DNA from: Salinisphaera sp.
GTDB lineage: Bacteria > Pseudomonadota > Gammaproteobacteria > Nevskiales > Salinisphaeraceae
Reading direction: 5' to 3'
Assembly (NCBI GenBank): GCA_027858915.1
Contig: JAQIBT010000074.1
Location: forward strand, 1 to 64,000
DNA: 64,000 nt
The notes beneath the pieces are model-generated. The model worked only from the letters and a program-made list of their open reading frames with translations. It was not told the DNA's origin and searched no databases. Made by a program: the position numbers and the translations under genes. This document shows positions 1,983 to 13,957 of this stretch, in pieces. How positions within the stretch are numbered: position 1 is the first letter of the stretch; each line of letters opens with the position of its first letter.

Positions 1983-2622
1983 GCTCGCGCACCTGTTTGA
2001 GTGTGTTTTCGATTTCTCGGCGGATCAGATCCTCGCGGCCCTGCCCGGGCTCGACCGCATCGAGCAGTTGGTCGATGCGATGCGGGAGCGCCAGCAAGGC
2101 CGAGCGCAGGCCCACTACAACGCGCTGCCACGCGGGCGCGATTTCATCGGCAGGGATGAGTTGGCGTTCGAGCTCCTGGCGCTTCAGGCGCGTCATCAAC
2201 GCGTCCTCTGCGGCTTTCCAGGTGCGCGGGTCGCGGCCCTGCAGCACGCGCAGCATCAGCGAGACCGTCTCGCTGTAGGCCGCCTGCTCTGCAGCCTGCG
2301 TCAGCACGTCCAGTTCAGACAGCTCATCCGCTTGCGAGGGGTATTGCCGCGCCACGGCCACAGCCTGCTGCGCCAGCCGCTCACCCGCTGCGTCAGCCGG
2401 CGCACCGCTGCCGTTCAGGCCAGCCCGCTGGTCGCGATCTGCCAGCCAGTCGACGACGGCGTCGACGTCATACCGGTGCGACTGGCCTGGCCGGCCACGC
2501 TGGGCGATCGGGCACGCCGGCTCTTCCTCGATCCAGCGGCGGACGACCGACGCCTCCCAGTCGCCAATGCCACGGCGCGAAAGCTCAGCCACCAGCTCGC
2601 GGCCTTTCACCAGCTCAGGCAT
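1963..2622 (-). CDS. Phage terminase small subunit, Nu1-like
   Basis: DNA-recognition partner of the terminase. The N-terminal 60 residues form a winged-helix-like region (LVKGRELVAELSRRGIGDWE, then WIEEEPACPIAQRGRPGQ and SHRYDVDAVVDWLADRD) typical of Nu1/DUF1441 proteins. The C-terminal half is helical and charged, as expected for oligomerisation and for binding the large subunit. The ATG at 2622 is preferred over the in-frame GTG at 2631 because a G-rich ribosome-binding-like run lies just upstream of it. Its end overlaps the large-subunit start, the usual small-then-large order. Length about 219 residues. Family assignment is by remembered similarity, not by search. Confidence 0.8.
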   Translation of the reverse strand: MPELVKGRELVAELSRRGIGDWEASVVRRWIEEEPACPIAQRGRPGQSHRYDVDAVVDWLADRDQRAGLNGSGAPADAAGERLAQQAVAVARQYPSQADELSELDVLTQAAEQAAYSETVSLMLRVLQGRDPRTWKAAEDALMTRLKRQELERQLIPADEIAPAWQRVVVGLRSALLALPHRIDQLLDAVEPGQGREDLIRREIENTLKQVREHVIPGR

Positions 2623-2794
2623 GACGCACACCCCCGGATTGATGGCTGGCCGACGACCCGTGAACCGGTTTCGAACCTCGCAAAACTAGACAAAACCTGC
2701 GCGTTTGAATACCCGCATGCGCTGCTGCCCAGAAGGACCCGCGACGGGTCGGGGCGTCTTCGGATGCCGTGCCGATCGAGGCTGGCGAGCAGGT

Positions 2795-3060
2795 GTCACC
2801 ACCGTCACCACCTGTAAAGGCAGGTGGTGACGGCAGGTGGTGGCGGCGAATCCATTGCGCCATAAGCGTTTGGGTTGCTGTCACCACTGTCACCACCTTT
2901 TCTCTTAACGTATAAGGGATATCAGCAGCAGCTGGTCGTGTGCATGCGCGCACGCGCCTACGCGGGAACGGGTTTAGGTGGTGACGGTGGTGACAGCCTT
3001 CTCGCGCAAGGGCTAGCGTGTCACCAACGGGGGTTGGTGACAGGTGGTGACGGTGGTGAC
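2795..3060. repeat. Cluster of GGTGGTGAC / GTCACCACC 9-mers with two hairpins
   Basis: The 431 bases between the terminase small subunit and the VapE gene carry no convincing gene but are full of a 9-mer. GTCACCAC(C/T) occurs as tandem doublets at 2795 and 2804, and at 2880 and 2889. GGTGGTGAC occurs as doublets at 2977 and 2986, and at 3043 and 3052. Variant or inverted copies lie at 2823, 3020 and 3033. Two copies form a perfect 13-bp inverted repeat (2802-2814 with 2821-2833, 6-base loop), and a 10-bp stem with a GGGG loop lies at 3019-3042. The doublets and dyads suggest a protein-binding array such as a replication origin or packaging site next to the primase. The minus-strand ORF through this region is low-complexity (HHRHH, VVTVVT) and is rejected as a gene. 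Confidence 0.75.
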
Positions 3061-3062
3061 AG

Positions 3063-5270
3063 CTAGAACGCATTGACGGCCTCCGTTTGCTCGCGAACAT
3101 GATCATTGCGATCTTCTTCGGGCCGCAGGTACAACCATCTCTTGCGACCATTGACGCGTCGCTGGCGCCGGACCCAGCCCATTCGCTTGATGATGGAGCC
3201 GGCCCGCATCTGCTCTTGCCGCGTGTGCCGAGACTTATCAAGATTCAGCGCGAGGCTCAGCACCTGGTCGATCGTCACCTCATCCTTTCGCCCGCTGAAT
3301 GCCGCTGGGCCGTCCGAATCGTAGTGGCCGTACCCTTCCAGCCAATCCGAGATCGGATCAGCCCATGAGTCTTCCATGTAACGCCGAGCGCGCTCGTGTT
3401 CGGCTTGCGCCGGCAACTCCCAGTAGCACTCGCCGCGCTTATAGCGGGCGTCTGCCTCGGCCCATAGCTGGTCCCGATCTGCCTTGAGCATCTCCAGCTC
3501 CACGCCGCTGACACGCACGGGCATGAATCGCCTGGCGCCTGTCGGGTCGCGCAGGTATTCGTCGTCGTTGGTCGTACCCACGAATATGCAGTGACGAGGG
3601 AATGAGCGCGGCATGCGCCCGTAGCTGGGCCTGAATACATCGACCTTGGCCGACACGGCCGACTTGACCTTGGGCATCTGCGGCTTCGAGAACGCCTGCA
3701 TCTCCTCGATCTCTACTAGCCAACGGCCCTGCAGGATCTGATAGAAATCCTTGTTATCTGGCGATTCGGTGGTGGCCACGAACCAATCGCTGCCAGACAG
3801 CAGCTCAATCGCCGTCGACTTGCCTGCACCTTGCGCGCCTTCGAGGATCATCATCAGATCGCTTTTGCAGCCTGGGTCACGTACCCGCGCCGCTGCAGCG
3901 ATCATGAAGTTCAGCCCAACCTGCCGGCTGTACTCGTCATACTCGACGCCGAAATAATCAGCCAGCAGGCGCGGCAACCGATCCTCGCCATCCCAGTGCA
4001 GCGCGTCCAGGTAATCCCGCACCGGGTGAAACTTGTTGCGTGCCGCTACCATGCCCACGGCCTCATACATCAGACCAGTGGCGACATTGAGGCCGTACGT
4101 CTCAGGGTGCCCAAACCAGGCAGCCAGCTCGGCCACCTCGGCATCGGATATCTCACGCAGCCCGCCACCGAACGGCGGCTCGCGCGAGAACACGACTTTC
4201 GTCGCAAACTCATTCAGCCGCAGCAGCCCCGCCAGCCGGTCGTCATGCTCGAGGATGGTGGCCACGTTATGAATCGTCGCCGTAACCCGGCCGTCCTTGT
4301 TGCAGATCAGTCGTTCGCGCCAGCCGGCATCCGCGATTTGGCGCTCAATCTCAGCCAGCACATAGGCGCGAACAGCAGCCAGCCCCTGCTCGGCATGCAT
4401 ATCATTGAAGTCAGACCGCCCCGCCGGGTCATTGAACACCGGCGACAACACCAGCGCCTTGTGCGCCTCGCCAGCCGTATTGGCCTTGTGCTGCCCTACA
4501 TTTGCCTGCTCAGCCGTCTGATTTGGAAGCGGCCTCACCTCATGATCGTCATCAGCGCAGATCACCACCGTTCGCATGCGAAACGTCTCACGCAAACGCG
4601 CCAGCACCGGCTGAATGTTTCCGGCATCAAACACCACCACCGTGGGATACCCAGTGGCTTGATGCAGGCTAGCGCCGGTCGCGTAACCTTCGGCAATCAA
4701 AATAGGCAAATCACCCTGGAAAGAGCCCAGGTGATGACACGCCCCTTGCTTGGGCGTGCCTGTTAAAAATCGTTTACTACCGTCGGCCGCAATCCACTGC
4801 AGGCCTACCAGCACCTTGTCGCGCCGCACCGGGACCACCACGGCACCGCGGGCATACCGCACGCCGTGCCCAGCCACGCCCTTGCGGGCCAGATACTCAG
4901 ACGCACCCTGCTCTGGCAGCTTCGGCCAGATCCGCTCTGCCCGGTTGCGCGCCTCATCAACCGCCGCCTGGCGCGCCTTGCGAGCCTCGGCGTCGGCTTC
5001 GGCGCGCGCCTGGGCAAACGCCTTGCGTTCATCGTCCGACAACCCGCGGCCGTCTGGCTTGATCTCAACAGAGGCGCCCGTCTTCCAGTTGCCGCCGTGC
5101 CCGTACACCAGTACATCGCCATTCTTCGCGCGGTACTCATGCAACACATACCAGCCGGATTTTTTCTTACCCTTATCAGTATCGACCGCCACCCGCTGCA
5201 GCGCGCCAAACTCGACGTGCTCAACAGCCAGCCCGATAGACTCTAATTGACGATATACCCCGTCAATCAT
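3063..5270 (-). CDS. Phage primase-helicase: TOPRIM plus VapE domain
   Basis: A 735-residue replication protein. Residues about 1-120 resemble the N-terminal part of phage primases, with a charged helix. Residues about 130-300 carry a TOPRIM-like fold (PILIAEGYATGASLHQATGY, VVVFDAGN, VVICADDDHE), giving the Glu and the DxD acidic residues. The C-terminal half is a virulence-associated-E helicase domain with Walker A GAQGAGKS, then the acidic VEIEEM and the conserved RPSYGRMPRSFPRHCIFVGT and GARRFMPV segments. It starts one base inside the stop of the upstream gene (TGATG), so the two are translationally coupled. Expected role: priming and unwinding at the phage origin, for which the adjacent 9-mer array is a candidate. 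Confidence 0.9.
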   Translation of the reverse strand: MIDGVYRQLESIGLAVEHVEFGALQRVAVDTDKGKKKSGWYVLHEYRAKNGDVLVYGHGGNWKTGASVEIKPDGRGLSDDERKAFAQARAEADAEARKARQAAVDEARNRAERIWPKLPEQGASEYLARKGVAGHGVRYARGAVVVPVRRDKVLVGLQWIAADGSKRFLTGTPKQGACHHLGSFQGDLPILIAEGYATGASLHQATGYPTVVVFDAGNIQPVLARLRETFRMRTVVICADDDHEVRPLPNQTAEQANVGQHKANTAGEAHKALVLSPVFNDPAGRSDFNDMHAEQGLAAVRAYVLAEIERQIADAGWRERLICNKDGRVTATIHNVATILEHDDRLAGLLRLNEFATKVVFSREPPFGGGLREISDAEVAELAAWFGHPETYGLNVATGLMYEAVGMVAARNKFHPVRDYLDALHWDGEDRLPRLLADYFGVEYDEYSRQVGLNFMIAAAARVRDPGCKSDLMMILEGAQGAGKSTAIELLSGSDWFVATTESPDNKDFYQILQGRWLVEIEEMQAFSKPQMPKVKSAVSAKVDVFRPSYGRMPRSFPRHCIFVGTTNDDEYLRDPTGARRFMPVRVSGVELEMLKADRDQLWAEADARYKRGECYWELPAQAEHERARRYMEDSWADPISDWLEGYGHYDSDGPAAFSGRKDEVTIDQVLSLALNLDKSRHTRQEQMRAGSIIKRMGWVRRQRRVNGRKRWLYLRPEEDRNDHVREQTEAVNAF

Positions 5271-5938
5271 CAGTGCGCCGCCTTCGCCGCACGGACGCGC
5301 TGGCGACGATCAGAAAAATGGTCGGACCCGCCGGGCGAACTCAGCGCATCACGCACGCACTGCACCCGTGCCCGGATACTCGCAACGGCCGCTTCCAGGC
5401 CCCGCAGATCGTCCTCAATCTCACCGTCTGATACATCCGCCGGGTTGATCTCGCCGTCTGCCAATGCCCGAGCCAGCGCCGACGTCGTGCGACCCGCCTC
5501 ACTCAGCAATCGGCCCATAATCTCAGCATCCGGGCAAGGCTCCGCCGCAAGCGACACAGCCCCGATAAACCCATAACGCCACGCCAGCTCGTGCCGGCAA
5601 CGCTCGCCGTAAGGCTCAGGCAGCGCATACGCCCACGCCTCTTCGAGCTCGCACGGAATCCGCACCGAGCCATCCATGGCCCGCTCAACCCGCTTGCGTA
5701 ATTTGCCCGCGAGCCGGCCCGACTCAATGATGGACGCGTGCCGATCGATCTCGGGCCATTCCAGCGTCTGCACGTCCGCCGGCACACGCTGGTTGTATTC
5801 ACACGCCAGAGCCAGCGCAAAAGCCTCTTGCGTGAACGGCGTCTCGCGGATCGCCATATCCAGAAAGAATGTCAACACATCCTGTCGCCGCCGGTGGCTC
5901 GTCTGTCCGCAGCGAGACGTATTCGGTTTAGCAATCAT
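5270..5938 (-). CDS. Phage protein of unknown function upstream of the primase
   Basis: About 222 residues from ATG 5938 (MIAKPNTSRCGQTSH). The longer reading from 6001 is less likely, because GAGGGG lies 10 bases before the 5938 ATG. The protein is mostly helical: an N-terminal basic stretch (HRRRQ), then FFLDMAIRETPFTQEAFALA, which could be a DNA-binding or structural helix pair, and an acidic C-terminus. No enzyme motif is visible. It is the first or second gene of the leftward transcript that begins at the Cro-like gene and overlaps the VapE start by one base, so a role in early replication or its control is likely. I do not recognise the family. Confidence 0.65.
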   Translation of the reverse strand: MIAKPNTSRCGQTSHRRRQDVLTFFLDMAIRETPFTQEAFALALACEYNQRVPADVQTLEWPEIDRHASIIESGRLAGKLRKRVERAMDGSVRIPCELEEAWAYALPEPYGERCRHELAWRYGFIGAVSLAAEPCPDAEIMGRLLSEAGRTTSALARALADGEINPADVSDGEIEDDLRGLEAAVASIRARVQCVRDALSSPGGSDHFSDRRQRVRAAKAAH

Positions 5939-6040
5939 CCGCGACAATCCCCTCAAGGTAACAACCCAATCTGTAACCAACCGCTCGCCCGCCAAAGCCA
6001 AGGAACGGTAAAAATGACAAACCCAGCGCAGCCAACGGCC

Positions 6041-6265
6041 TCACGCGGATTGCTCCACGCCGGGCAACGGCCCAAACAGCTCTGGATTGAGTTCGCGGCG
6101 CGTCACGCGGCCACGAAGAACCCGCTCGATATCCCGGCATCGCTTGCCAGGAACCCAGCCGGTCGCAGCCCAGCGCTGCACCGCCTGCGGTCGGACGCCC
6201 AACAGAGCGGCCAAGGCCGTCTGGCTACCAGCGATCGCGATCGCGCGATGTATTCCGTGATTCAT
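6041..6265 (-). CDS. Cro/YdaS-like helix-turn-helix regulator
   Basis: A 74-residue DNA-binding protein. The start at 6265 (MNHGIHRAIAIAGS) is chosen over upstream in-frame codons because it gives a normal Cro/YdaS length and lies just behind the leftward promoter. The segment QTALAALLGVRPQAVQRWAA is a clear helix-turn-helix, followed by VPGKRCRDIERVLRGRVTRR and ELNPELFG, the characteristic end of Cro/YdaS proteins. It is divergent from the CI-like gene across a gap that holds three operator-like dyads, exactly the position of cro. It presumably opens the lytic, leftward transcript. Confidence 0.85.
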   Translation of the reverse strand: MNHGIHRAIAIAGSQTALAALLGVRPQAVQRWAATGWVPGKRCRDIERVLRGRVTRRELNPELFGPLPGVEQSA

Positions 6266-6272
6266 AACCCAC

Positions 6273-6338
6273 GTTTTACAAGTATCATTTGTAGGCGTCA
6301 AGCGAAATTTGCAATGCACCCTACAACGGCCGCATGTA
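6273..6338. promoter_or_regulatory. Divergent cro/cI control region with three operator-like sites
   Basis: Leftward promoter: -35 TTGACG (complement of 6296-6301), 17-base spacer, -10 TAAAAC (complement of 6273-6278). Between the two boxes lies the near-perfect dyad TACAAGTATCATTTGTA (6277-6293). Weaker copies of the same TACAA-N7-TTGTA pattern are GTCAAGCGAAATTTGCA (6297-6313) and TACAACGGCCGCATGTA (6322-6338), spaced 20 and 25 bases apart. The third ends three bases before a GTG in frame with the repressor gene. The arrangement matches a three-operator lysogeny switch. A clear rightward promoter for the repressor was not resolved. Confidence 0.75.
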
Positions 6339-6349
6339 ACGTGAAAATC

Positions 6350-6880
6350 ATGCACATAGGAAAGCGCATTGCCACGGCTCGCCTCGCCGCTGATTTAACT
6401 CAGAGCGAACTGGCGCGCCGGTTGAAAGTCACGCCGCAGTCGGTCCAGTCGTGGGAAGCCGGCAACAGCACACCGCGCCCCCAGCGCGTGCAAGACATCG
6501 CCGCCGCCCTGGGCTGCAACGATGCCTGGCTAGCCGGCTACAACGACCGCGCCACCGCCGGGCGCGCCAATTACCCATCCACGCCGGCCAGCCGCGCGCA
6601 TTACATCGCCGAAAACACGCCGGACCACCTCGATGTCGGTATCATCGAAGACATCCTGGAAGCCCTAAGCGACATCCAGGTAAAAAACATCGACGAAGAA
6701 CTCACTCGCCAAACCATGGCCGAGATCATCGCCGACGCATACGCCACCACCGTCCGGCGCGTCCGCGCTGCGCAACGCAGCCAGGTGCACAACATCGTCG
6801 CGGACGCCGTCGGCAAAAGTCACCACCAGAAAAAGCAGGGTAGCCATTGGGACAAAGACAAATCGCAAGACAAGCCGTGA
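6350..6880 (+). CDS. CI-like phage repressor (XRE helix-turn-helix, no S24 peptidase domain)
   Basis: About 176 residues from ATG 6350; an in-frame GTG at 6341 is an alternative. The N-terminus (MHIGKRIATARLAADLTQSE, LARRLKVTPQSVQSWEAG, NSTPRPQRVQDIAAALGC) is a textbook XRE/434-type helix-turn-helix. The C-terminal half is helical and acidic, then basic, and has no LexA/S24 Ser-Lys catalytic signature, so RecA-driven self-cleavage is not predicted. Neither candidate start has a good Shine-Dalgarno sequence, so a leaderless message, as for lambda cI from its maintenance promoter, is possible. It is expected to bind the TACAA-N7-TTGTA sites on both sides of the gene. Confidence 0.85.
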   Translation: MHIGKRIATARLAADLTQSELARRLKVTPQSVQSWEAGNSTPRPQRVQDIAAALGCNDAWLAGYNDRATAGRANYPSTPASRAHYIAENTPDHLDVGIIEDILEALSDIQVKNIDEELTRQTMAEIIADAYATTVRRVRAAQRSQVHNIVADAVGKSHHQKKQGSHWDKDKSQDKP

Positions 6881-7080
6881 GCGATTCGTACGACCAACGC
6901 TCAGGCACCGGGCGTCGTCAAAACACGACCGGCCGCCGCCAGACCGACACGCCATCCCATAAGCCGTGCGTCCAAGTGACTATAGATGCCACATTCCAGG
7001 CCGGCGCCGTCACCATCTATGCCCACCCACTGCCGGCAAAGCCGCAAGAGGCACCAGAAGAAAAACAGCGCACTGATTAA
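6847..7080 (+). CDS. Small hypothetical protein after the repressor
   Basis: A 77-residue ORF overlapping the last 34 bases of the repressor gene in another frame. It is basic and polar at the start (RRQNTTGRRQTDT), with a short beta-like stretch (VQVTIDATFQAGAVTIYAHP) and a Pro/Glu-rich tail. It lies between the repressor and a Rho-independent terminator at 7163, so it would be on the repressor transcript. An opposing minus-strand ORF (6901-7179) encodes a Trp/Phe-rich hydrophobic helix and cannot be excluded. No family recognised. Confidence 0.4.
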   Translation: MGQRQIARQAVSDSYDQRSGTGRRQNTTGRRQTDTPSHKPCVQVTIDATFQAGAVTIYAHPLPAKPQEAPEEKQRTD

Positions 7081-7162
7081 CCACCAGCACACTACAAAGC
7101 CGAGAAGGCCGAGCGAAATCAGCTCATAGAAAGCGCGGATCCACGCCAACCCCTCATCACCA

Positions 7163-7185
7163 GCCCGCCTAGCGGGCATTCTTTT
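7163..7185 (+). terminator. Rho-independent terminator of the repressor transcript
   Basis: GCCCGC (7163-7168), CTA loop, GCGGGC (7172-7177), then ATTCTTTT. It lies between the repressor unit and the promoter of the next operon and separates the two transcripts. Confidence 0.7.
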
Positions 7186-7194
7186 GTGCGGAAT

Positions 7195-7234
7195 TACAAA
7201 TTACACTTGACGACTTACAATTAGGGATTGTAAT
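7195..7234 (+). promoter_or_regulatory. Promoter of the rightward phage operon with two operator-like dyads
   Basis: TTGACG (7207-7212), 16-base spacer, TGTAAT (7229-7234). The dyad TACAATTAGGGATTGTA (7216-7232; perfect 7-bp arms if extended to 7215-7233) lies between the boxes. A half-matching copy, TACAAATTACACTTGAC (7195-7211), overlaps the -35 and is spaced 21 bases away, two helical turns. These have the same pattern as the sites in the cro/cI gap, so this operon is probably silenced by the same repressor. Confidence 0.75.
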
Positions 7235-7279
7235 GTCGGCAGCGTAGACCCACAAACCGCCAACCAGGCGACCCGCGCC

Positions 7280-7690
7280 ATGACCGAATCTGTCGCACAA
7301 CCCCGCTACACGCTGCAGGAAGCCGCCCAGGCCATCGGCATGGGCGAGCGCGCCGTGTTTCGCGCCCTGCGCCGTCGACGCGTCATCACCAAGGCCAACG
7401 TGCCGGTTGTGCGCTACAAGCGCCTGGGCTATCTGGTTGAAGAAGAACACAGTTACCAGCACCCCAGCGTCGGCACCAAGTTCTACAGCCGCACCCTGGT
7501 CACGCCCGCCGGCATCCAATGGCTGCAAACCCTGCTCGCTGACGATCAGGCCAGCAAACCCTGCCCCATGCACGCCCTCGTGCAAGAAATCGCCCACATG
7601 AACCCCGACGCGGCCGAAATCGGCCCCGGCAAGCTGAGCCATCTGGTCAGCCAGGCCCGCGCCATCATCGCCAGCGAGGCCAGCCAATGA
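7280..7690 (+). CDS. Phage KilAC-type (antirepressor C-terminal) DNA-binding protein
   Basis: A 136-residue protein whose first 90 residues (YTLQEAAQAIGMGERAVFRA, VPVVRYKRLGYLVEEE, FYSRTLVTPAGIQWLQTLL) match the KilAC/ANT domain found at the C-terminus of phage antirepressors: a helix-turn-helix that chooses between two states, then a small beta-wing. Here it stands alone without an N-terminal BRO or Rha domain. First gene of the rightward operon, about 40 bases behind the operator-bearing promoter, and joined to the next gene by an ATGA overlap. It may antagonise the repressor or act as a secondary regulator. Confidence 0.8.
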   Translation: MTESVAQPRYTLQEAAQAIGMGERAVFRALRRRRVITKANVPVVRYKRLGYLVEEEHSYQHPSVGTKFYSRTLVTPAGIQWLQTLLADDQASKPCPMHALVQEIAHMNPDAAEIGPGKLSHLVSQARAIIASEASQ

Positions 7691-7926
7691 GCCATATCAG
7701 CCAACAACTGATCGCCGCCGGCGTCGAGATCGAAACCACCACGTTCACGGCCGGCAATCTCGTCATTGTCGAGCTACGCCGTGGCGTGCCCGGTCATGCC
7801 AGCGGCACCGGCCTGTACGGCGCTGGCAAAACCCGCGACGAAGCCCTCGCCATGCTGCTCGAAACCATCAACCAGATGTCCCGCCTGGTCGAGCACTCCA
7901 TGACCACCACGCAGGCCACGGCATGA
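7687..7926 (+). CDS. Small phage protein, unknown
   Basis: 79 residues, starting in an ATGA overlap with the KilAC gene and ending in one with the next gene. It has alternating beta-like residues (IETTTFTAGNLVIVELRRG), a Gly-rich turn, then one helix (TRDEALAMLLETINQMSRLV). This small alpha/beta shape suits an accessory phage protein. No family recognised. Confidence 0.65.
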   Translation: MSHISQQLIAAGVEIETTTFTAGNLVIVELRRGVPGHASGTGLYGAGKTRDEALAMLLETINQMSRLVEHSMTTTQATA

Positions 7927-8201
7927 GCTGCACCCCGTTTCAGATCGAAGAAATCAACGTGCGCTACGAAACCGGCCACGGCCTGCCATCCGGTACGCGC
8001 ATTGCCATCTACATGTGCAACGTCACCAAATTCAGCCGCGCGATTCTGCAGGTACAGCAAGGCGGCCAATGGAATAACAGCGGCCTGGCCGGCATCGGCC
8101 ACGGGCGCCAGGACGCCGTCTCCGACCTCCACCTGCAAATGCAGGCACTGGTCGATGGCACCCGGCAGATCCTCAGGGCCTGCCCCTGGGTGCCGCAATG
8201 A
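7923..8201 (+). CDS. Small phage protein, unknown
   Basis: 92 residues inside the ATGA-coupled chain. The N-terminal half is beta-rich (FQIEEINVRYETG, RIAIYMCNVTKFSRAILQVQ) and ends in an amphipathic helix (LHLQMQALVDGTRQILRA). Two Cys only, with no metal-binding pattern. No family recognised; coupling on both sides supports translation. Confidence 0.65.
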   Translation: MSCTPFQIEEINVRYETGHGLPSGTRIAIYMCNVTKFSRAILQVQQGGQWNNSGLAGIGHGRQDAVSDLHLQMQALVDGTRQILRACPWVPQ

Positions 8202-8401
8202 AATTCACCCAACGCAGCCGCTACCACGTCGAATCCGACAACCGCCGCTACACCGTCAGCAAAGCCTGGGTAAACGGCGCGTGGATCTACGACGCCTGGT
8301 CACGCCATACCCGCCCTGCCACCTGCCTGCATACCGGCACCAAGGCCAGCTGCCTTTCCGCCTGCGAAACCCACGCCCAACAACAAGAGGCCAGCGCATG
8401 A
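8198..8401 (+). CDS. Small phage protein, unknown
   Basis: 67 residues, basic and Trp/Tyr-rich at the N-terminus (YHVESDNRRYTVSKAWVNGA, WIYDAW), with two spaced Cys later (ATCLHTGTKASCLSACE). It could be a short beta-sheet protein that marks or binds nucleic acid, but no motif is diagnostic. ATGA overlaps at both ends. Confidence 0.6.
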   Translation: MKFTQRSRYHVESDNRRYTVSKAWVNGAWIYDAWSRHTRPATCLHTGTKASCLSACETHAQQQEASA

Positions 8402-8616
8402 AGACCGCAGCAACCCAATCGGCCGAGTTTTCATCAGCCGACAACATCCTGCTGGCCCTGGCAACGCTGGCGTTCATCGTCGCCAGTGCGCTCTGCGTAA
8501 TCCACAGCCCGCGAATTGCAATCGCACTGGCCGCCATCAGCGGCTGCCTCGTGATCGCCGCCTGGGCCGGTTATCGCTTTGCCATGGCATGGCACCAGAC
8601 AGCCCACCAGTCATGA
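8398..8616 (+). CDS. Small phage membrane protein with two transmembrane helices
   Basis: 72 residues from the ATG at 8398, within the ATGA of the upstream stop. Two hydrophobic helices (NILLALATLAFIVASALCVI and IAIALAAISGCLVIAAWAGY) are joined by a short HSPR loop. It has the form of small phage inner-membrane proteins of the exclusion or holin-like kind, but its place in a lysogenic-side operon argues against holin. Function unknown. Confidence 0.65.
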   Translation: MKTAATQSAEFSSADNILLALATLAFIVASALCVIHSPRIAIALAAISGCLVIAAWAGYRFAMAWHQTAHQS

Positions 8617-8834
8617 GCGCCCCGTTCACGCATACCTGCGGCGCAACCGTCGAAATAACGGTCTGCACAGCCGGCTGGCATTACACGGTGGAATTTCTCA
8701 GCACCGATACCCAACAGACCATTCGGCACTGCCCGCAATGCCAGGCCGATCTATACGCCGCCTATCGAGACGGCGCCCTGCGCGACGACGAAAGCCGCCC
8801 CACCCGACCAGACGGCCACCGAGGAAACGCATGA
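8613..8834 (+). CDS. Small phage zinc-ribbon-like protein
   Basis: 73 residues from the ATG at 8613 (MSAPFTHTCGATVEITVCTA), overlapping the upstream stop. An HTC start and a later HCPQC give a plausible Cys/His metal site. The middle is beta-rich and the tail polar. ATGA overlap with the following gene. No family recognised. Confidence 0.65.
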   Translation: MSAPFTHTCGATVEITVCTAGWHYTVEFLSTDTQQTIRHCPQCQADLYAAYRDGALRDDESRPTRPDGHRGNA

Positions 8835-9124
8835 ACCACACCATCATCGACGCCACCCCCATGGAAGCCGCCGCCTGCCGCCTGCTCATCGCCTGCATGC
8901 GGGCCAGCGAACACAGCGGCCGCGGCGTTCGGTTCACCTACCACAACAACCCGGTATCCGACCTGCTCAACGTAGGCGGAACGATCACAACGCAGCTTAA
9001 CCGCGCCGACCTGTACGGCCAATCGATCCTGCAATCAACAAAAATCCACAGCCCGGCCGACATCGACAGACGCGCCCACCAGATTGCAGAACAACTGCTT
9101 CACAGAGAAACCCGATGCGCCTGA
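8831..9124 (+). CDS. Small phage protein, unknown
   Basis: 97 residues from the ATG at 8831. The N-terminus is helical (PMEAAACRLLIACMRASE), followed by a beta-turn region and a C-terminal helix (DIDRRAHQIAEQLLHRE). It starts in the ATGA of the upstream gene, and its last ten bases overlap the next start. No recognised domain. Confidence 0.6.
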   Translation: MNHTIIDATPMEAAACRLLIACMRASEHSGRGVRFTYHNNPVSDLLNVGGTITTQLNRADLYGQSILQSTKIHSPADIDRRAHQIAEQLLHRETRCA

Positions 9125-9336
9125 AATCCAGAACGCCGTCACTGGCCAGCCAATACCGCCCCAGCAGCCCAGCCGAGCGCCGCAACGAGCTGCAAACGCG
9201 CAACGTGCACCGGCTCATCGACTATTTCGGCCGCAGCGCCCAACACACCCTGGCCGCCGAAGCGCGCCGGCTTCGCGCCCGCCAGAACCGGCGCCAAAAC
9301 CTGCGCGGCGCATTCCTTGCGCGGCGTAGCGACTAA
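9115..9336 (+). CDS. Small basic phage protein, unknown
   Basis: 73 residues and very basic (13 or more Arg), with RRNELQTRNVHRLIDYFGRS and AAEARRLRARQNRRQNLRG. Probably a nucleic-acid-binding helix bundle. The start lies inside the end of the upstream gene. It is the last of the small-gene chain before the ParB-like gene. No family recognised. Confidence 0.6.
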   Translation: MRLKSRTPSLASQYRPSSPAERRNELQTRNVHRLIDYFGRSAQHTLAAEARRLRARQNRRQNLRGAFLARRSD

Positions 9337-9357
9337 TAAGCCGACCAAGGCAGATTT

Positions 9358-10920
9358 ATGAGCACTCCTATTTCGCATGCGAACACTCCCGGCGCCAGAA
9401 TCCGCGCCGCCCGCGCGGCGCTCAACCTCAGCCAGACCGAACTGGCCGAGCGCTGTAGCTGGCCGGGCGATGAAGGCAAGGCGCGTATATCCCGCTACGA
9501 GCGCGACGTACGCACGCCCAGCTATACCGACGCCCAGGCACTCGGCCGCGCCTTGCGTATGAGCGCCCATGGCCTGCTGACTGGCGATCCCGACGGCGTC
9601 ACCGTGCAACAGATCCCGCTGTCCTGCATCCAGCGCGACATCAATCAGCCTAGGCACCTGGAATCGATCGACCACACCAGCGAAGCCACCCAACAACTGG
9701 CGCAATCCATCCGCGCCCACGGCGTCCTGCAACCCGTCACCGTCCGGCCCGATCCTGGCCAGCACCCCGAAGACGATCCGCACTACATCGTCATCTACGG
9801 TGAACGCCGCTGCCGCGCCGCAATCGAAGCGCACCTCAGCCACATACCCGCCATAGTGCGTACCGACATCGAGGACACCGACGACCGCCTGGCAATCCAG
9901 ATCCTCGAAAACCTGCAGCGGCTAGACCTCAACCTGCCAGAACTCATCACCGGCATTAGTCAGCTGGCGCAGACGCGCACCCAGGACCAGATCGCTGCCG
10001 AACTCGGCCGCTCCCGCGCCTGGGTCAGCCGCCGGGCTTCCTTGCACGATTGCAGCGCCGAAGTCTGGCAGGCCATCCAGGACGGTCTGATCAACGACAT
10101 CGACATGGCCCACGCCTTCGAACAGCTGTTCGAAGTGAATGCCGGCTGCGCGCAGAGCAACCTAAACAGCATGCGCCGCATCGCGAATGGCGAAATAGAC
10201 CAGCCACAGCTGACGCGCGCCCAGATCCAGGACGCCGTCAAAGAATGTCGCCGCATCGAGCAAGACCGAACCGCCACGCAAGAGAAAAAAGCCGCCGCAG
10301 AACGCGAAAAAGCCGAAGCCCAACGCCGCGAAGAAGAACGCGCCAACGACACGAGCAGTGGCTACGACGGCCCGCTCGAGGACAACAGCGGCCAGCCCGC
10401 CGAAGTCACCGGCAGCGAAGGCCAGCACGAAGCCGAGCGAAAAGCCGCGCGAAAAGCCGCGCCTGACGAGCCCCAGGACAGCCACAAACGCCCCTGGTCA
10501 GAACGCGAGCGCCAGGCCAACCAGGACGCCGAGGAAATCCAGACGGCTATCGGCCGCCCGGTCAAAGTCGAGCCGCTGGTCATCGACCCCTGCCTGTACG
10601 TCGAAATTGGCAATCTATCCGACGCCGACTGGCAATCACTCAAGGCCCACCTGCTCCGCTGGCGCCCGCCGGCAGACAGCGACCTACTAAGCAAGCACAC
10701 GCCAGAAACCACCACCGGCGACGAAGACCCGCTCTATCAGGAAGCCGAGCATTCCGTCCGACAGCAACCCACGGCCTCCATATCCTGCCTGCAGCGCGCC
10801 ATCAACTGCAGCTACTGGCGCGCCGCACGCCTGATGGACGAACTACAAAACAACGGCGTCGTCAGCGCGCTGAAAGCCGACGGCTCGCGCGCCGTGCTGG
10901 CTGCTAACGGAGATCAATAA
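9358..10920 (+). CDS. XRE - ParB-like - FtsK-gamma fusion protein
   Basis: 520 residues with three DNA-binding modules. Residues about 12-77 are an XRE helix-turn-helix (ARIRAARAALNLSQTELAER, RISRYERDVRTPS). Residues about 84-230 are ParB/Spo0J-like, with the hallmark GERRCRAAIEAHL and a central helix-turn-helix (QDQIAAELGRSRAWVSRRAS). Residues about 285-390 are a charged Glu/Lys/Arg linker with a short duplicated AERKAARKAA-type run. Residues about 455-505 (DPLYQEAEHSVRQQPTASIS, then RAARLMDELQNNGVVS) match the FtsK gamma winged helix that reads KOPS in chromosome translocases. There is no FtsK motor. The likely role is phage DNA partition, transcription control or nucleoprotein assembly. 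The next gene begins at the last base of its stop. Confidence 0.85.
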   Translation: MSTPISHANTPGARIRAARAALNLSQTELAERCSWPGDEGKARISRYERDVRTPSYTDAQALGRALRMSAHGLLTGDPDGVTVQQIPLSCIQRDINQPRHLESIDHTSEATQQLAQSIRAHGVLQPVTVRPDPGQHPEDDPHYIVIYGERRCRAAIEAHLSHIPAIVRTDIEDTDDRLAIQILENLQRLDLNLPELITGISQLAQTRTQDQIAAELGRSRAWVSRRASLHDCSAEVWQAIQDGLINDIDMAHAFEQLFEVNAGCAQSNLNSMRRIANGEIDQPQLTRAQIQDAVKECRRIEQDRTATQEKKAAAEREKAEAQRREEERANDTSSGYDGPLEDNSGQPAEVTGSEGQHEAERKAARKAAPDEPQDSHKRPWSERERQANQDAEEIQTAIGRPVKVEPLVIDPCLYVEIGNLSDADWQSLKAHLLRWRPPADSDLLSKHTPETTTGDEDPLYQEAEHSVRQQPTASISCLQRAINCSYWRAARLMDELQNNGVVSALKADGSRAVLAANGDQ

Positions 10921-11702
10921 TGACCGGCCCTGAAAGCATCGTCTTTAAAGTGCTCACCGCCGCCAGTCGGCCACTTCTCCGCGCTGAGATCTACAGCGCA
11001 GACGATCGATTAGAAAGCCAGCACATTGTATCCAACGCCCTGTCATCACTACGCACCGAAAACCTGATCGAGCGCCTGGACGACGGCACATGGAGAACCT
11101 GCACCAACCAGCCTGACGACGATGAAAGCGAACAACAGACACCCGAGCCCACGGAAAAGACAACCGATACGCGAAGTAAAGCCCAGATGGCCATCGACTA
11201 TGTCAAGGCACACCCCGGCCTGAGCGGCCACGAAATCAGAACCAAACTCGATGACCAGCACGCACCGGCCCGCCTGACGCAGGCGGCAGCGGCCGGTCAC
11301 ATTAACCGCGAAAAAGACGAATTCAACACTTGGCGATATTTCGAAGCCGATCAAAGCAACGCTGCCGCCAAACCGATTATTGACCCCGCAAAAGCCGCTG
11401 AATCTCAGGTCGCAGCGAGAACCGATCGATATTTCGAAGACTTTGAACAATCCGAACAGACAGCCGAAGAGATATACCAGCTCGCCGCGCTGTTCAAAAG
11501 ACCCGGCGGACCACTACAGAACAGCTCGGCCCGCGACGTCCGAATTCAGCTGACCGAAGCCGACAGCGCCATCTGGACCAGCGGCCGAATAACGCTCAGC
11601 GGCATAGACGCCACCACTGGCATGCCTGTGCAGATAACGCTGGCGCCCGCAGCGGCCGCTCAGCACATCAAATACCTCGACCGTATGGCCGACACACCGT
11701 GA
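10920..11702 (+). CDS. Phage protein with two winged-helix-like regions
   Basis: 260 residues, one-base TAATG overlap with the ParB fusion, so probably translated with it. Residues about 3-62 (VFKVLTAASRPLLRAEIYSA, VSNALSSLRTENLIERLDDG) and about 88-145 (MAIDYVKAHPGLSGHEIRTK, RLTQAAAAGHINREKDE) look like successive winged helices. A C-terminal beta-rich segment (VRIQLTEADSAIWTSGRITL) resembles none I know. It may be a DNA-binding partner of the ParB fusion. Family not recognised. Confidence 0.7.
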   Translation: MTGPESIVFKVLTAASRPLLRAEIYSADDRLESQHIVSNALSSLRTENLIERLDDGTWRTCTNQPDDDESEQQTPEPTEKTTDTRSKAQMAIDYVKAHPGLSGHEIRTKLDDQHAPARLTQAAAAGHINREKDEFNTWRYFEADQSNAAAKPIIDPAKAAESQVAARTDRYFEDFEQSEQTAEEIYQLAALFKRPGGPLQNSSARDVRIQLTEADSAIWTSGRITLSGIDATTGMPVQITLAPAAAAQHIKYLDRMADTP

Positions 11703-11736
11703 GCCGCCTGATAAACCCCAACGGAGCCGACGAATA

Positions 11737-11940
11737 ATGGACCCCGCAGAACACGCCAGCGACACCGCCCAATTCCACCTGGAACACCGCCTGGACAATC
11801 GCGAGCGCTACCAGGGGGAAAGCGCCACCCATTGCGCCGACTGCGCCGATCCAATCCCGCAGCGCCGCCGAGAATCAATCGCCGGCTGCCGCCGCTGCTG
11901 CTCTTGCCAGGAAGACCACGACCGCCGGAACAACCCATGA
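11737..11940 (+). CDS. TraR/DksA-type zinc-finger protein
   Basis: 67 residues. The C-terminal C4 finger is C-x2-C (CADC) then, 17 residues on, C-x2-C (CCSC), with the family's PIPxxRRxxxxGCRRC pattern (DPIPQRRRESIAG). Short TraR/DksA homologues are common in phages and may bind the RNA polymerase secondary channel to alter promoter choice; whether this one does is not shown. It ends in an ATGA overlap with the following gene. Confidence 0.8.
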   Translation: MDPAEHASDTAQFHLEHRLDNRERYQGESATHCADCADPIPQRRRESIAGCRRCCSCQEDHDRRNNP

Positions 11941-12275
11941 CCCCCACCGACCCCAACGGCAAAAGCCCAAAAGAGCCCGGCGCCAAGCTAGACGGCGGCA
12001 AGCTGCAGCCCGACCTGATCTTTACCGGGTTTTCTCGCGCCCTATCGGCCGTGGCAGAAATCGGCACGCACGGCGCCGAAAAATACACGCGCGACGGCTG
12101 GGCAAGCGTCCCCGACGGCATCTACCGATACCGCAACGCCGGCCAGCGACATGCCCTTGCACGCGCCACGGGCGAACAACTCGACCCAGACAGCGGCCTG
12201 CCACACCTGGCACACGAGGCCTGGAACAAGCTGGCCGAACTTGAGCTGGCGTTGCGCCAGGGAGACCCATCATGA
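11937..12275 (+). CDS. dATP/dGTP diphosphohydrolase-like protein (DUF5664 type)
   Basis: 112 residues from the ATG at 11937. GAKLDGGKLQPDLIFTGFSR, then IGTHGAEKY, VPDGIYRYRNAGQRHALARA and SGLPHLAHEAWNKLAELEL are the conserved blocks of phage dATP/dGTP diphosphohydrolases. These remove dATP and/or dGTP and were linked to base-modified (Z-genome) phages, although many carriers have ordinary DNA. No PurZ is visible in this window. ATGA overlaps on both sides. Confidence 0.8.
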   Translation: MTPTDPNGKSPKEPGAKLDGGKLQPDLIFTGFSRALSAVAEIGTHGAEKYTRDGWASVPDGIYRYRNAGQRHALARATGEQLDPDSGLPHLAHEAWNKLAELELALRQGDPS

Positions 12276-12481
12276 GCCAAAACCAACGCAACCCCGTTAA
12301 GATGCTTGAATCGGAAGGCCGGCCCGACCCGGCAGTGGCCGACCGCATCGTGCAACTTATGACGCAACGGGGAACAGGCCATGAGGAAGACAGCCGCCAG
12401 CTATCTTCGATCGACGAAAGACCGCAGCGACGTGTCACTCGACTCTCAGAGGCGCGAGCTGCGCGAACTCGCGGCCCGTGA
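12272..12481 (+). CDS. Small hypothetical protein overlapping the recombinase start
   Basis: 69 residues, starting in an ATGA overlap with the diphosphohydrolase-like gene. The N-terminal part (PVKMLESEGRPDPAVADRIV) could be a short helix hairpin. The last 33 codons overlap the recombinase in another frame and are Arg-rich, so the real protein may matter mainly as a translational bridge. No family recognised. Confidence 0.4.
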   Translation: MSQNQRNPVKMLESEGRPDPAVADRIVQLMTQRGTGHEEDSRQLSSIDERPQRRVTRLSEARAARTRGP

Positions 12482-13922
12482 ACAGATCGAGATCGTCGCC
12501 GAATACAGCGACGCCGTCGAATCCGCCAAGAGCGAAAACCGCCCCGGCTTCCAGCGCCTGCTAACCGATTTACGATCACCGACCCGCGGCTGGAACATCC
12601 TGCTGGCCACCGACACCAGCCGCATCAGCCGACGCACCTACTTTGCGCACGTCATGCGCCACGAATGCGAAAAACGCGGCGTCGACGTCCGCTACTCCAA
12701 GCTCCCGCAGGATCTGGACCCCATCACCGAAGTCATCGTGCACAGCACGCTGACCGCGATGGACGAAGTCCACAGCCTCATGAGTCGCCAGAAAGGTCTC
12801 GCCGGAATGGCCGAAAACGTCCGCGCTGGCTGGCGCGCCGGCGGCCGCGCCCCCTACGGCTACGCCCTGGAGAAAGTCGGCACCGGCACCCAGCGAGACG
12901 GCGCCGAAGTCACAAAAACCCGATTGGTACGCGACAAGAGCGCATCCGCCGTCGCCCGCTACCTGCAAGAACGCGCCGCCGGCGCCACCAGACGCATCGC
13001 GATGGACGCATCCGCCGTCAACAAGGCCGCCAGCACGCTGATCGGCATCGAATGGAACGCCCTAACCTACGCCGGCGCCACCATCTGGAACGTCCACGCC
13101 GAACAACTACCGGACGGCGGCTATAAAGGCGGCCACAAGCGGCGACCGCGCGAAGAATGGGTTATCCAACGCGACACCCACGAAGCGCTCATTACCTGGG
13201 AACAAGCAGAAACAATAGTCCACCGCCTGGAAAACAGCGATCGCGGCAAAGCCGTATCAGCCGGCAAAACCGGCAACAGCGCCTACCTGCTCACCGGCCT
13301 GCTCACCTCACCCCAGGGCGGCAAATGGTGGGGCCACCGACAGCGCAAACAGACCTACTACCGCCACGTCGACGCCAACGGAAAAAACAAACACGTGCTG
13401 ACCAACCACGTCGACGAAGCCGTAATCGAAAAAATCGCGCGCGACATGAACAGCGACGAATTCGTCAAAGCCCTCGCCGCCAACGCGCGCCAACAGACCA
13501 ACGCCGACGACCCAGCCCAGGAGCTGCGCACCGAAGTCGTCCGCCTGAACGAACAAATCAGCAAAACCATGGATCTCGCCACCAGCCTGGACGACCCCGC
13601 GCCCGCTCTGCGCAAAATCAACGAACTCGAGCGCACGCGCAAAGAAGCCGCCGAACAGGTCAACGCACTGGAACGAGAGCACAGCGCCCAAGAAGCCTTG
13701 CGCCAAGTGACACCTGACGGCATCCGAAAAGCACTGGACACGTTATGGAAGGATACTCGCGAACTAGACACGCCGCAGATGAAAGCGGCCTTGAAGGCCT
13801 TTGTACAAGCAGTCGAACTGAACCCGGAAACACTTGAAGCAAAAGTATTTTACCGAGTATCAGCCGACCGTTGCGTACGTATGGCGTCCCCAAGGGGATT
13901 CGAACCCCTGTTGCCGCCGTGA
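12381..13922 (+). CDS. Large serine recombinase (phage integrase)
   Basis: 513 residues. Resolvase domain at about 1-140: AASYLRSTKDRSDVSLDSQR, then the catalytic-core Arg region (ATDTSRISRRT). Recombinase domain at about 165-250 (GRAPYGYALEKV, RRPREEWVIQRDTHEALIT). Zinc-ribbon-type region at about 290-350 and coiled coil at about 385-440 (ELRTEVVRLNEQ, LNELERTRKEAAEQVNALER-like). The nucleophile region reads YLRST, so the exact catalytic Ser needs an alignment. The ribbon lacks obvious Cys pairs. Its last 13 codons read through the antisense of tRNA-Glu, which places the right attachment site at or next to the tRNA 3' end. In the free phage the C-terminus probably differs. Confidence 0.9.
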   Translation: MRKTAASYLRSTKDRSDVSLDSQRRELRELAAREQIEIVAEYSDAVESAKSENRPGFQRLLTDLRSPTRGWNILLATDTSRISRRTYFAHVMRHECEKRGVDVRYSKLPQDLDPITEVIVHSTLTAMDEVHSLMSRQKGLAGMAENVRAGWRAGGRAPYGYALEKVGTGTQRDGAEVTKTRLVRDKSASAVARYLQERAAGATRRIAMDASAVNKAASTLIGIEWNALTYAGATIWNVHAEQLPDGGYKGGHKRRPREEWVIQRDTHEALITWEQAETIVHRLENSDRGKAVSAGKTGNSAYLLTGLLTSPQGGKWWGHRQRKQTYYRHVDANGKNKHVLTNHVDEAVIEKIARDMNSDEFVKALAANARQQTNADDPAQELRTEVVRLNEQISKTMDLATSLDDPAPALRKINELERTRKEAAEQVNALEREHSAQEALRQVTPDGIRKALDTLWKDTRELDTPQMKAALKAFVQAVELNPETLEAKVFYRVSADRCVRMASPRGFEPLLPP

Positions 13923-13957
13923 AAGGGCAGTGTCCTAGGCCTCTAGACGATGGGGAC
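13882..13957 (-). tRNA. tRNA-Glu (anticodon TTC)
   Basis: Reading the minus strand, GTCCCCA pairs with TGGGGAC, discriminator G, and CCA is encoded. The anticodon loop is CTTTCAC (TTC). It is the second gene of a tRNA-Ala/tRNA-Glu pair with two bases between them. Its 3' end borders the phage recombinase gene and is the likely integration site. Confidence 0.95.

Follow-up and report, generated by a model that had tools for sequence, protein, structure and literature searches.

We analysed positions 1 to 64,000 (forward strand) of contig JAQIBT010000074.1 from the draft genome of Salinisphaera sp. (GCA_027858915.1; 4,325,536 bases), and this whole stretch is called the window below. The window begins at the contig start, and its first 13.9 kb resemble a prophage that is cut by the contig end. 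Within this prophage, an open reading frame (ORF) of 520 codons at 9358-10920 on the + strand, with start ATG and stop TAA, encodes a protein of 520 amino acids (aa). It combines an XRE head, a ParB_N domain, a KorB-type helix-turn-helix (HTH) domain, a helical linker and an FtsK_gamma domain. No second ParB-gamma fusion was found among the matches listed. We give about an even chance to the reading that this phage ParB is a KorB/ParB-like clamp, gated by nucleoside triphosphate (NTP), which would load at dispersed phage sites of its own and in which the C-terminal winged helix was swapped for a remodelled FtsK-gamma.

Domain content and the FtsK-gamma tail

The initial annotation had placed an XRE head, a ParB-like core and an FtsK gamma part in one protein. 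This was confirmed by Pfam, by phmmer against the Protein Data Bank (PDB) and by fold matches. The XRE / HTH_3 head covers aa 15-69 (9400..9564, + strand; Pfam 9.5e-10, 38.8 bits, cut-off 23). The ParB_N CTPase fold follows at aa 83-187 (9604..9918, +; 9.8e-20, 70.9 bits, cut-off 26.3), and both its box II (GERRCRA, aa 148) and its box III (ENLQR, aa 184) are present. The KorB-type HTH domain occupies aa 209-296 (9982..10245, +; Pfam KorB 3.8e-8, 33.6 bits, cut-off 22.3). The NCBIfam ParB model TIGR00180 scored 104.8 bits against a cut-off of 58.45.

The FtsK_gamma winged helix was located at aa 455-515 (10720..10902, +). A profile search of the 455-505 region had been proposed as a check, and it gave a Pfam match at 6.9e-17 (61.4 bits, cut-off 30.6), so the objection foreseen there, a lack of any match, falls away. 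The match spans profile positions 2-62 of 63 at twice the Pfam cut-off, and the last 81 aa alone matched FtsK_gamma at 2.8e-18 (Pfam). In the PDB, phmmer recovered the FtsK gamma chain 2j5o (3.7e-9) together with ParB/KorB chains.

An AlphaFold model built from a 37-row alignment had a mean predicted local distance difference test (pLDDT) score of 80, with the gamma domain at about 95. Its aa 456-517 superpose on the KOPS-bound (FtsK-orienting polar sequences) gamma domain of P. aeruginosa, 2ve9_F, with Z 11.9 and a root-mean-square deviation (rmsd) of 1.4 over 62 residues. The top fold match for the ParB part was KorB of plasmid RK2 (8qa9_B), on which aa 82-306 superpose with Z 17.8 and rmsd 3.3 over 207 residues.

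As the initial annotation had stated, no motor stands beside the gamma part. No RecA-type motor was detected, and FtsK-family matches were confined to the gamma part, in Pfam, NCBIfam and the best 25 of 33 PHROG matches. The ParA-binding motif (L/F/I)G(K/R)G(L/F/I) is absent from the 520-aa protein. A ParB-type C-terminal dimerisation domain at aa 375-445 was considered and dropped. A single-sequence model (pLDDT 46) shows helix-strand-strand-helix there, yet an hhalign comparison with the C-termini of 16 ParBs from the host's family returned a probability of 0.6%, and the region partly lies below pLDDT 50.

FtsK gamma is the reader that orients a DNA pump. Its KOPS-reading residues are N1296, R1300 and E1303, according to the accessible part of PMC2533119. 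The residues that contact XerD are given in Table 1 of PMC5052618, a source available in part, as Q1288, R1289, R1292, I1293, G1294 and N1296. The nine-residue peptide RQFRIGYNR (1289-1297) is described, in the available portion of this literature, as enough to stimulate recombination. In the 520-aa protein the equivalent stretch reads RAINCSYWR. The KOPS triad becomes W/R/D, with one of three residues kept, and the XerD contacts become Q, R, N, C, S and W, with two of six kept. Equivalents of R1289 (XerD salt bridge), R1297 and R1300 are retained.

Among 30 FtsK rows (the host FtsK L001 and L032-L060, fetched without any demand on residues), 1296 was N in 30/30, 1294 was G in 30/30 and 1303 was E in 29/30. 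Among 88 phage gamma rows, which include the FtsK locus L060 (present in both sets) and two second domains, 1294 was G in 86. Position 1296 was N in 86/88; the phage loci were fetched by a pattern demanding N or W there, and this count means only that no W was seen.

The initial annotation had suggested that the tail reads host KOPS or contacts XerD, and so ties phage DNA or the protein to the terminus or to FtsK/XerCD. Both profile and fold identify the tail as a true FtsK gamma, and the three kept arginines fit such a role. The substitutions N1296 to W, E1303 to D and G1294 to S and the loss of four of six XerD contacts speak against it. Furthermore, GGGNAGGG occurs twice in the prophage (1-13881) against 2.2 expected and three times in the rest of the window against 5.7 expected, so it is not enriched in the prophage, with the limit that GGGNAGGG may not be the host's KOPS. 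The phage also brings its own serine recombinase. We consider this tie very unlikely. Reading of canonical KOPS by the tail is unlikely on these residues, and an altered form of KOPS or XerD contact is possible because R1300 and R1289 are kept. The recognition surface of the gamma domain appears to have been remodelled toward a new target.

The changes at several diagnostic gamma positions, and the lack of a second case among the matches listed, could also point to a chance or decaying joint with a functionless gamma part. Against this, the gamma domain shows no break across 61 positions (61 bits), its modelled pLDDT is about 95, the ORF stays open to its end, and the next gene follows at once. 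We regard a chance or decaying joint as very unlikely.

Gamma modules, which are common in other phages, were compared across phages and genomes. In these searches, counts of 80 related loci mean at least 80, and "closest" and "none" hold among the matches listed. The C-terminal 81 aa were matched by 244 of 50,697 phage records at E <= 0.01, including an annotated RdgC protein, a protein beside RecT and a stand-alone 105-aa gene. Among the gamma ORFs from IMG/VR (at least 80), 19 were RdgC-like and 52 resembled the N-terminus of the Pseudomonas phage P54 gamma protein. Neither a ParB core nor an XRE head matched at E <= 1e-3 in 80 phage gamma ORFs (one truncated to 20 aa); the same ParB query recovered 80/81 ParB rows as a control. 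FtsK_gamma was absent from the ORFs of at least 50 aa in 163 ParB loci, namely 80 from viral contigs, 80 from genome contigs (largely chromosomal-type ParBs) and three annotated records.

The full protein used as query found no relative in viral contigs (one stretch) or genome contigs (53 stretches). In 17 genomes of the host's family, its own included, ParB and FtsK matches were seen and no second full-length match; two longer ParB frames (L029, L030) were read individually. The C-terminal 136 aa gave no fusion among the matches listed in 369 genomes of the class, again with the host's own. Over 85 genomes of the order, FtsK_gamma matched FtsK, the window protein, an RdgC-like frame of 415 aa and two short frames of 187 aa (31.5 bits) and 191 aa (21.5 bits).

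As a separate observation, many phages and plasmids encode RdgC with a fused FtsK_gamma (L020, L023, L061-L140), as seen in the 19 RdgC-like gamma ORFs above and from annotations. RdgC and FtsK gamma never appeared together in the literature searched, which mostly covered papers outside subscription.

Relatives of the phage ParB family

An alignment query recovered at least 80 ParB loci in viral contigs. Pfam found ParB_N in all eight closest relatives (L143-L149 and L151) and KorB in seven of them. HTH_3 and FtsK_gamma gave no match at E <= 1 in any of the eight. In 80 other phage ParB rows, phmmer detected nothing matching the XRE head at E <= 1e-3. None of the phage ParB relatives examined carries a gamma tail.

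The C-termini of several relatives resemble phage primase ends, with E values of 7.2e-6 (L143), 0.0029 (L145), 1.3e-7 (L148, to phrog_1156, the best match), 4.4e-5 (L149) and 0.0017 (L151). L146 reached only 0.011, and L144 and L147 gave no match to phage primase ends. Pox_D5 matches under the cut-off were seen in four of the eight C-termini. The 520-aa protein belongs, as an outlier, to a phage ParB family that has no recognisable ParA. Because the relatives have neither XRE nor gamma parts and several of their C-termini match primase winged-helix ends, it appears to be a family member in which the C-terminal winged helix was exchanged for gamma, rather than gamma being gained in another way, and to which the head was added.

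The gene order is partly shared. The VapE protein of the window was matched on the opposite strand in 18/82 related loci and its CII protein in three others (21/82 together), with flanks of at most 6 kb. The serine recombinase was matched in 2/82 loci (L143, L156). L143 has the gene order of the window, with VapE (-), ParB (+) and serine recombinase (7.4e-126). By annotation, Acidovorax phage Aval and Variovorax phage VarioGold also show a similar order, with primase/VapE (-), CII (-), repressor (+), small genes (+), ParB (+) and integrase. However, these two phages are distant, since phmmer gave no match to the window genes at E <= 1e-3.

The same features could mean that the clamp is a replication or recombination helper, marking phage DNA for the VapE primase-helicase through its C-terminal winged helix. 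This would fit the primase-like C-termini of the relatives (5/8 at E <= 0.003), the VapE gene close by in the window, the opposite-strand VapE matches of the 18 loci, and the other phage gamma domains, which sit in RdgC proteins or beside RecT. However, the tail of the window protein is a gamma domain and not a primase winged helix, and the replication link is itself conjectural. We rate a helper role as rather unlikely.

Candidate binding sites and their weight

The candidate ParB loading site of the window, the near-palindrome TTTCGCATGCGAAC (9371..9384), is situated 13 bp downstream of the start codon in the 520-aa gene. A second candidate, GTTCGCATGCGAAA (4570..4583), is the reverse complement of TTTCGCATGCGAAC and lies in the primase/helicase gene. 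A weaker third one, TTCCGCCTGCGAAA (8356..8369), has one mismatch to TTTCGCNNGCGAAA and is not a full palindrome. At no more than one mismatch, TTTCGCNNGCGAAA had three matches in the window (4570, 8356 and 9371), all in the prophage, against 0.28 expected per 64 kb; three matches were reached in 0/100 shuffles. Across the entire draft genome, no sequence other than the sites at 4570 and 9371 comes within one mismatch of the consensus of these two. The initial annotation had offered a site of the protein's own near its gene as another option to KOPS. This is the better fit, since TTTCGCATGCGAAC is placed at the gene start and is of the dispersed type seen in the relatives; on this reading the protein would bind there.

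The relatives provide the pattern. Their phage records are 40-52 kb long, and G451-G457 are the records of L144-L149 and L151. The exact palindrome TTTCGCCGGCGAAA occurs in five of the eight closest loci. At no more than one mismatch over whole records, it was found three times in G451, four times in G452, six times in G453 and nine times each in G454 and G456, and not at all in G450, G455 and G457. From G450 to G457 in order, the looser pattern TTKCSCNNGSGMAA had 1, 3, 4, 5, 6, 6, 8 and 7 places. These make 40 places in 343 kb of eight phage records versus six in the 4.33-Mb host, an enrichment that is descriptive only, the pattern having been written after the sites were seen. Its reversed control had no place in the eight phage records and eight in the host.

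All seven sites of G457 read TTTCCCATGGGAAA. The six sites of G455 comprise five TTGCGCNNGCGCAA and one TTTCGCATGCGCAA, some of which are not full palindromes. Two of four sites in G452 are mismatched, and the one place in G450 lacks palindromic symmetry. Seven of the eight records thus carry 3-8 scattered copies of their own 14-bp palindrome or near-palindrome. The recurrent 14-bp sites in G451-G457 are candidate binding sites of the phage ParB. With the starts as chosen for L144 and L146, a site follows the ParB start by 25 bp in both, compared with 13 bp in the window; in L145, L147, L148, L149 and L151 the nearest sites are about 0.5 to 2.2 kb away.

Across the family, recurrent palindromes were seen in 12/80 ParB loci (two consisting of G+C alone or almost so) versus 0-2/80 in 10 shuffles. 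Other recurrent palindromes, TGCAGACGTCTGCA, TACCGATATCGGTA and TTAGTCATGACTAA, were noted in L195, L204, L182, L203 and L181, so the site may differ from one ParB subfamily to the next. Apart from these, a perfect 20-bp palindrome, CTTCGAACAGCTGTTCGAAG, lies at 10116-10135 within the coding region of the ParB HTH domain and is unexplained. As a main site it was rejected; its 18-bp core has one copy with three mismatches in the window, two copies with two mismatches on other contigs and none in viral contigs.

Centromere-like palindromes dispersed in the relatives, together with the ParB core, could also suit a protein that partitions the phage during an extrachromosomal phase. A simple pattern detected no ParA-like Walker motif in the visible, incomplete prophage, and a ParA could sit elsewhere. 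The 84 related loci and pieces gave one unconvincing ParA-like Walker match (L162). Since no such motif was seen and the ParA-binding motif is missing, classical partition is less likely. Furthermore, the element has an integrase and abuts a tRNA gene. We consider partition unlikely.

In the favoured reading, the ParB core would bind NTP (CTP by analogy), and the clamp would load on dispersed phage near-palindromes of type TTTCGCNNGCGAAA, including the one at the 5' end of the gene that encodes it. Once loaded, it would close in an NTP-driven manner, slide, and coat or mark phage DNA. It would probably act at a distance on phage genes, its own included, as KorB does on RK2, and may silence them. 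The XRE head, like the C-terminal winged helix, would provide an extra contact by which the clamp is stopped, locked or anchored at second sites or on partners. By analogy with KorA, which locks KorB, the fused head and gamma tail may be built-in locks or second DNA contacts. The winged helix typical of the family would be replaced here by a gamma domain with a remodelled recognition surface. The domains, the KorB fold match, boxes II and III, the gene order, the recurrent sites of the relatives and the window sites argue for this clamp.

Several points weigh against it. The two best window sites, each with one mismatch to the consensus TTTCGCATGCGAAA, themselves served to derive it, and with it three matches at no more than two mismatches were reached in 1/100 shuffles. 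The prophage holds 13 near-palindrome pairs versus 2-4 in three shuffles, and the 4570/9371 pair was first seen among them; because 13 similar pairs exist, this pair by itself carries modest weight. No exact copy of the relatives' palindrome occurs in the window, where its best match has two mismatches (0.48 expected). L143, the top-scoring relative, has no such site, and no perfect palindrome with 6-bp arms occurs more than twice in its record. Most of the 39 relatives' sites viewed lie inside open frames and not at promoters, which also argues against simple operators. The shared site position in L144 and L146 is not independent, because their N-termini are closely related. In 60/82 loci, with flanks of at most 6 kb, neither an opposite-strand VapE/CII match nor a recombinase match was found; L182, which is among these 60, does match VapE on the same strand. 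According to the available part of PMC12704722, 17 of 28 ParB-fold proteins tested bound no NTP. Finally, the visible prophage is truncated by the contig end.

Prophage surroundings, known systems and meaning

The next gene encodes a 260-aa protein (10920..11702, + strand), and its start overlaps the preceding stop by 1 nucleotide. The sequence TAATG at 10918-10922 holds the stop TAA (10918-10920), which shares a nucleotide with the ATG at 10920, and GGAG lies just upstream. Translational coupling of the two genes, as the initial annotation had stated, is plausible from this overlap, yet the 260-aa gene also has its own Shine-Dalgarno-like sequence. The protein had been described as a two-winged-helix protein. 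One MarR-type winged helix is weakly supported by PHROG (aa 81-145, 4.8e-4), and a second one very weakly. Aa 86-158 matched phrog_18765, of unknown function (2e-5), and NCBIfam gave an ArsR-type match at aa 33-65 under its cut-off (0.014). Pfam gave no match at E <= 1, and phmmer found no match to the protein in 82 related loci.

Elsewhere in the prophage, a terminase large subunit of 660 aa runs off the contig (phrog_15, 8e-198), and a small terminase subunit matched phrog_57 (8.3e-15). A Toprim/VapE-type primase-helicase (3063..5270, -; Pfam, PHROG) and a CII-like activator (5270..6001, -; phrog_4834) are encoded on the - strand. An HTH repressor-like gene (6350..6880, +) is separated from the 520-aa gene by small genes. 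One small protein upstream of the 520-aa gene and in the same direction (7280-7690) has a KilAC/antirepressor-type C-terminal domain. Downstream, a protein with a dATP/dGTP diphosphohydrolase N-terminal domain is found at 11937-12275.

The large serine recombinase (12381..13922, +) has its C-terminus coded within the tRNA-Glu gene (13882-13957, -). This C-terminus reads SPRGFEPLLPP, and the recombinase of L143 (8440-10020) ends in the similar stretch SLRGFEPRFSP. On this similarity, the phage group of L143 and the window may integrate at tRNA genes by serine recombinase.

Eight copies of GGTGGTGAC, on either strand, were observed at 2795-3060, an interval flanked by the small terminase gene on one side and the end of the VapE-type primase gene on the other. 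A further copy, the ninth, lies at 6819. The number expected is 0.42 per 64 kb, and L146 has four copies in 12.8 kb. The cluster is a candidate replication origin or set of iterons.

Dispersed centromeres are a feature of the plasmid-prophage N15. Among similar systems, KorB of RK2 (PDB 8qa9) shares ParB_N and the KorB HTH and is the best fold match. According to the accessible part of PMC11790492, KorB works as a CTP clamp; it is loaded at its specific DNA site, influences promoters as far as 1.5 kb away and is locked by its DNA-bound partner KorA. KorA is a separate HTH protein, whereas the phage protein carries a fused XRE head and FtsK-gamma tail; the site and the sequence also differ. VirB of Shigella flexneri is likewise a ParB-related gene regulator with a CTP switch, an antisilencer, and the available portion of PMC10770331 mentions no XRE or gamma part in it.

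Phages encode ParB-fold proteins, and many of these are not part of a parAB operon (Kaljevic et al. 2025, PMC12704722, accessible in part); orphan and fused forms are already known from that source. The terms "ftsk", "winged" and "xre" do not appear in its main text. FtsK gamma (PDB 2ve8, 2ve9) shares fold and profile with the phage tail, which differs in having W/R/D in place of the N/R/E triad, no motor and a mostly changed XerD surface. The small terminase of Bacillus phages Sam46/Sam112 also carries a gamma domain, with DNA-binding sites stated to be conserved in the accessible text of PMC8190038. This terminase, the RdgC-gamma proteins and the gamma protein beside RecT are motorless like the window protein but are not joined to ParB. 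Neither a ParB-gamma fusion nor dispersed phage ParB sites of this type were found in the parts available of the literature searched, mostly papers outside subscription.

More generally, we propose, at a little less than even weight, that temperate tailed phages possess a ParA-less distributed centromere, made of a ParB clamp and 3-8 phage-specific palindromes, with an exchangeable winged-helix effector that is here a retargeted FtsK-gamma. The missing part of the prophage is predicted to hold several more TTTCGCATGCGAA sites. A gamma domain placed on a ParB clamp with changed reading residues suggests that the module is re-usable and retargetable. For the phage ParB family there are now also candidate binding sites that can be tested, by which the role of ParA-less phage ParBs would become approachable experimentally.

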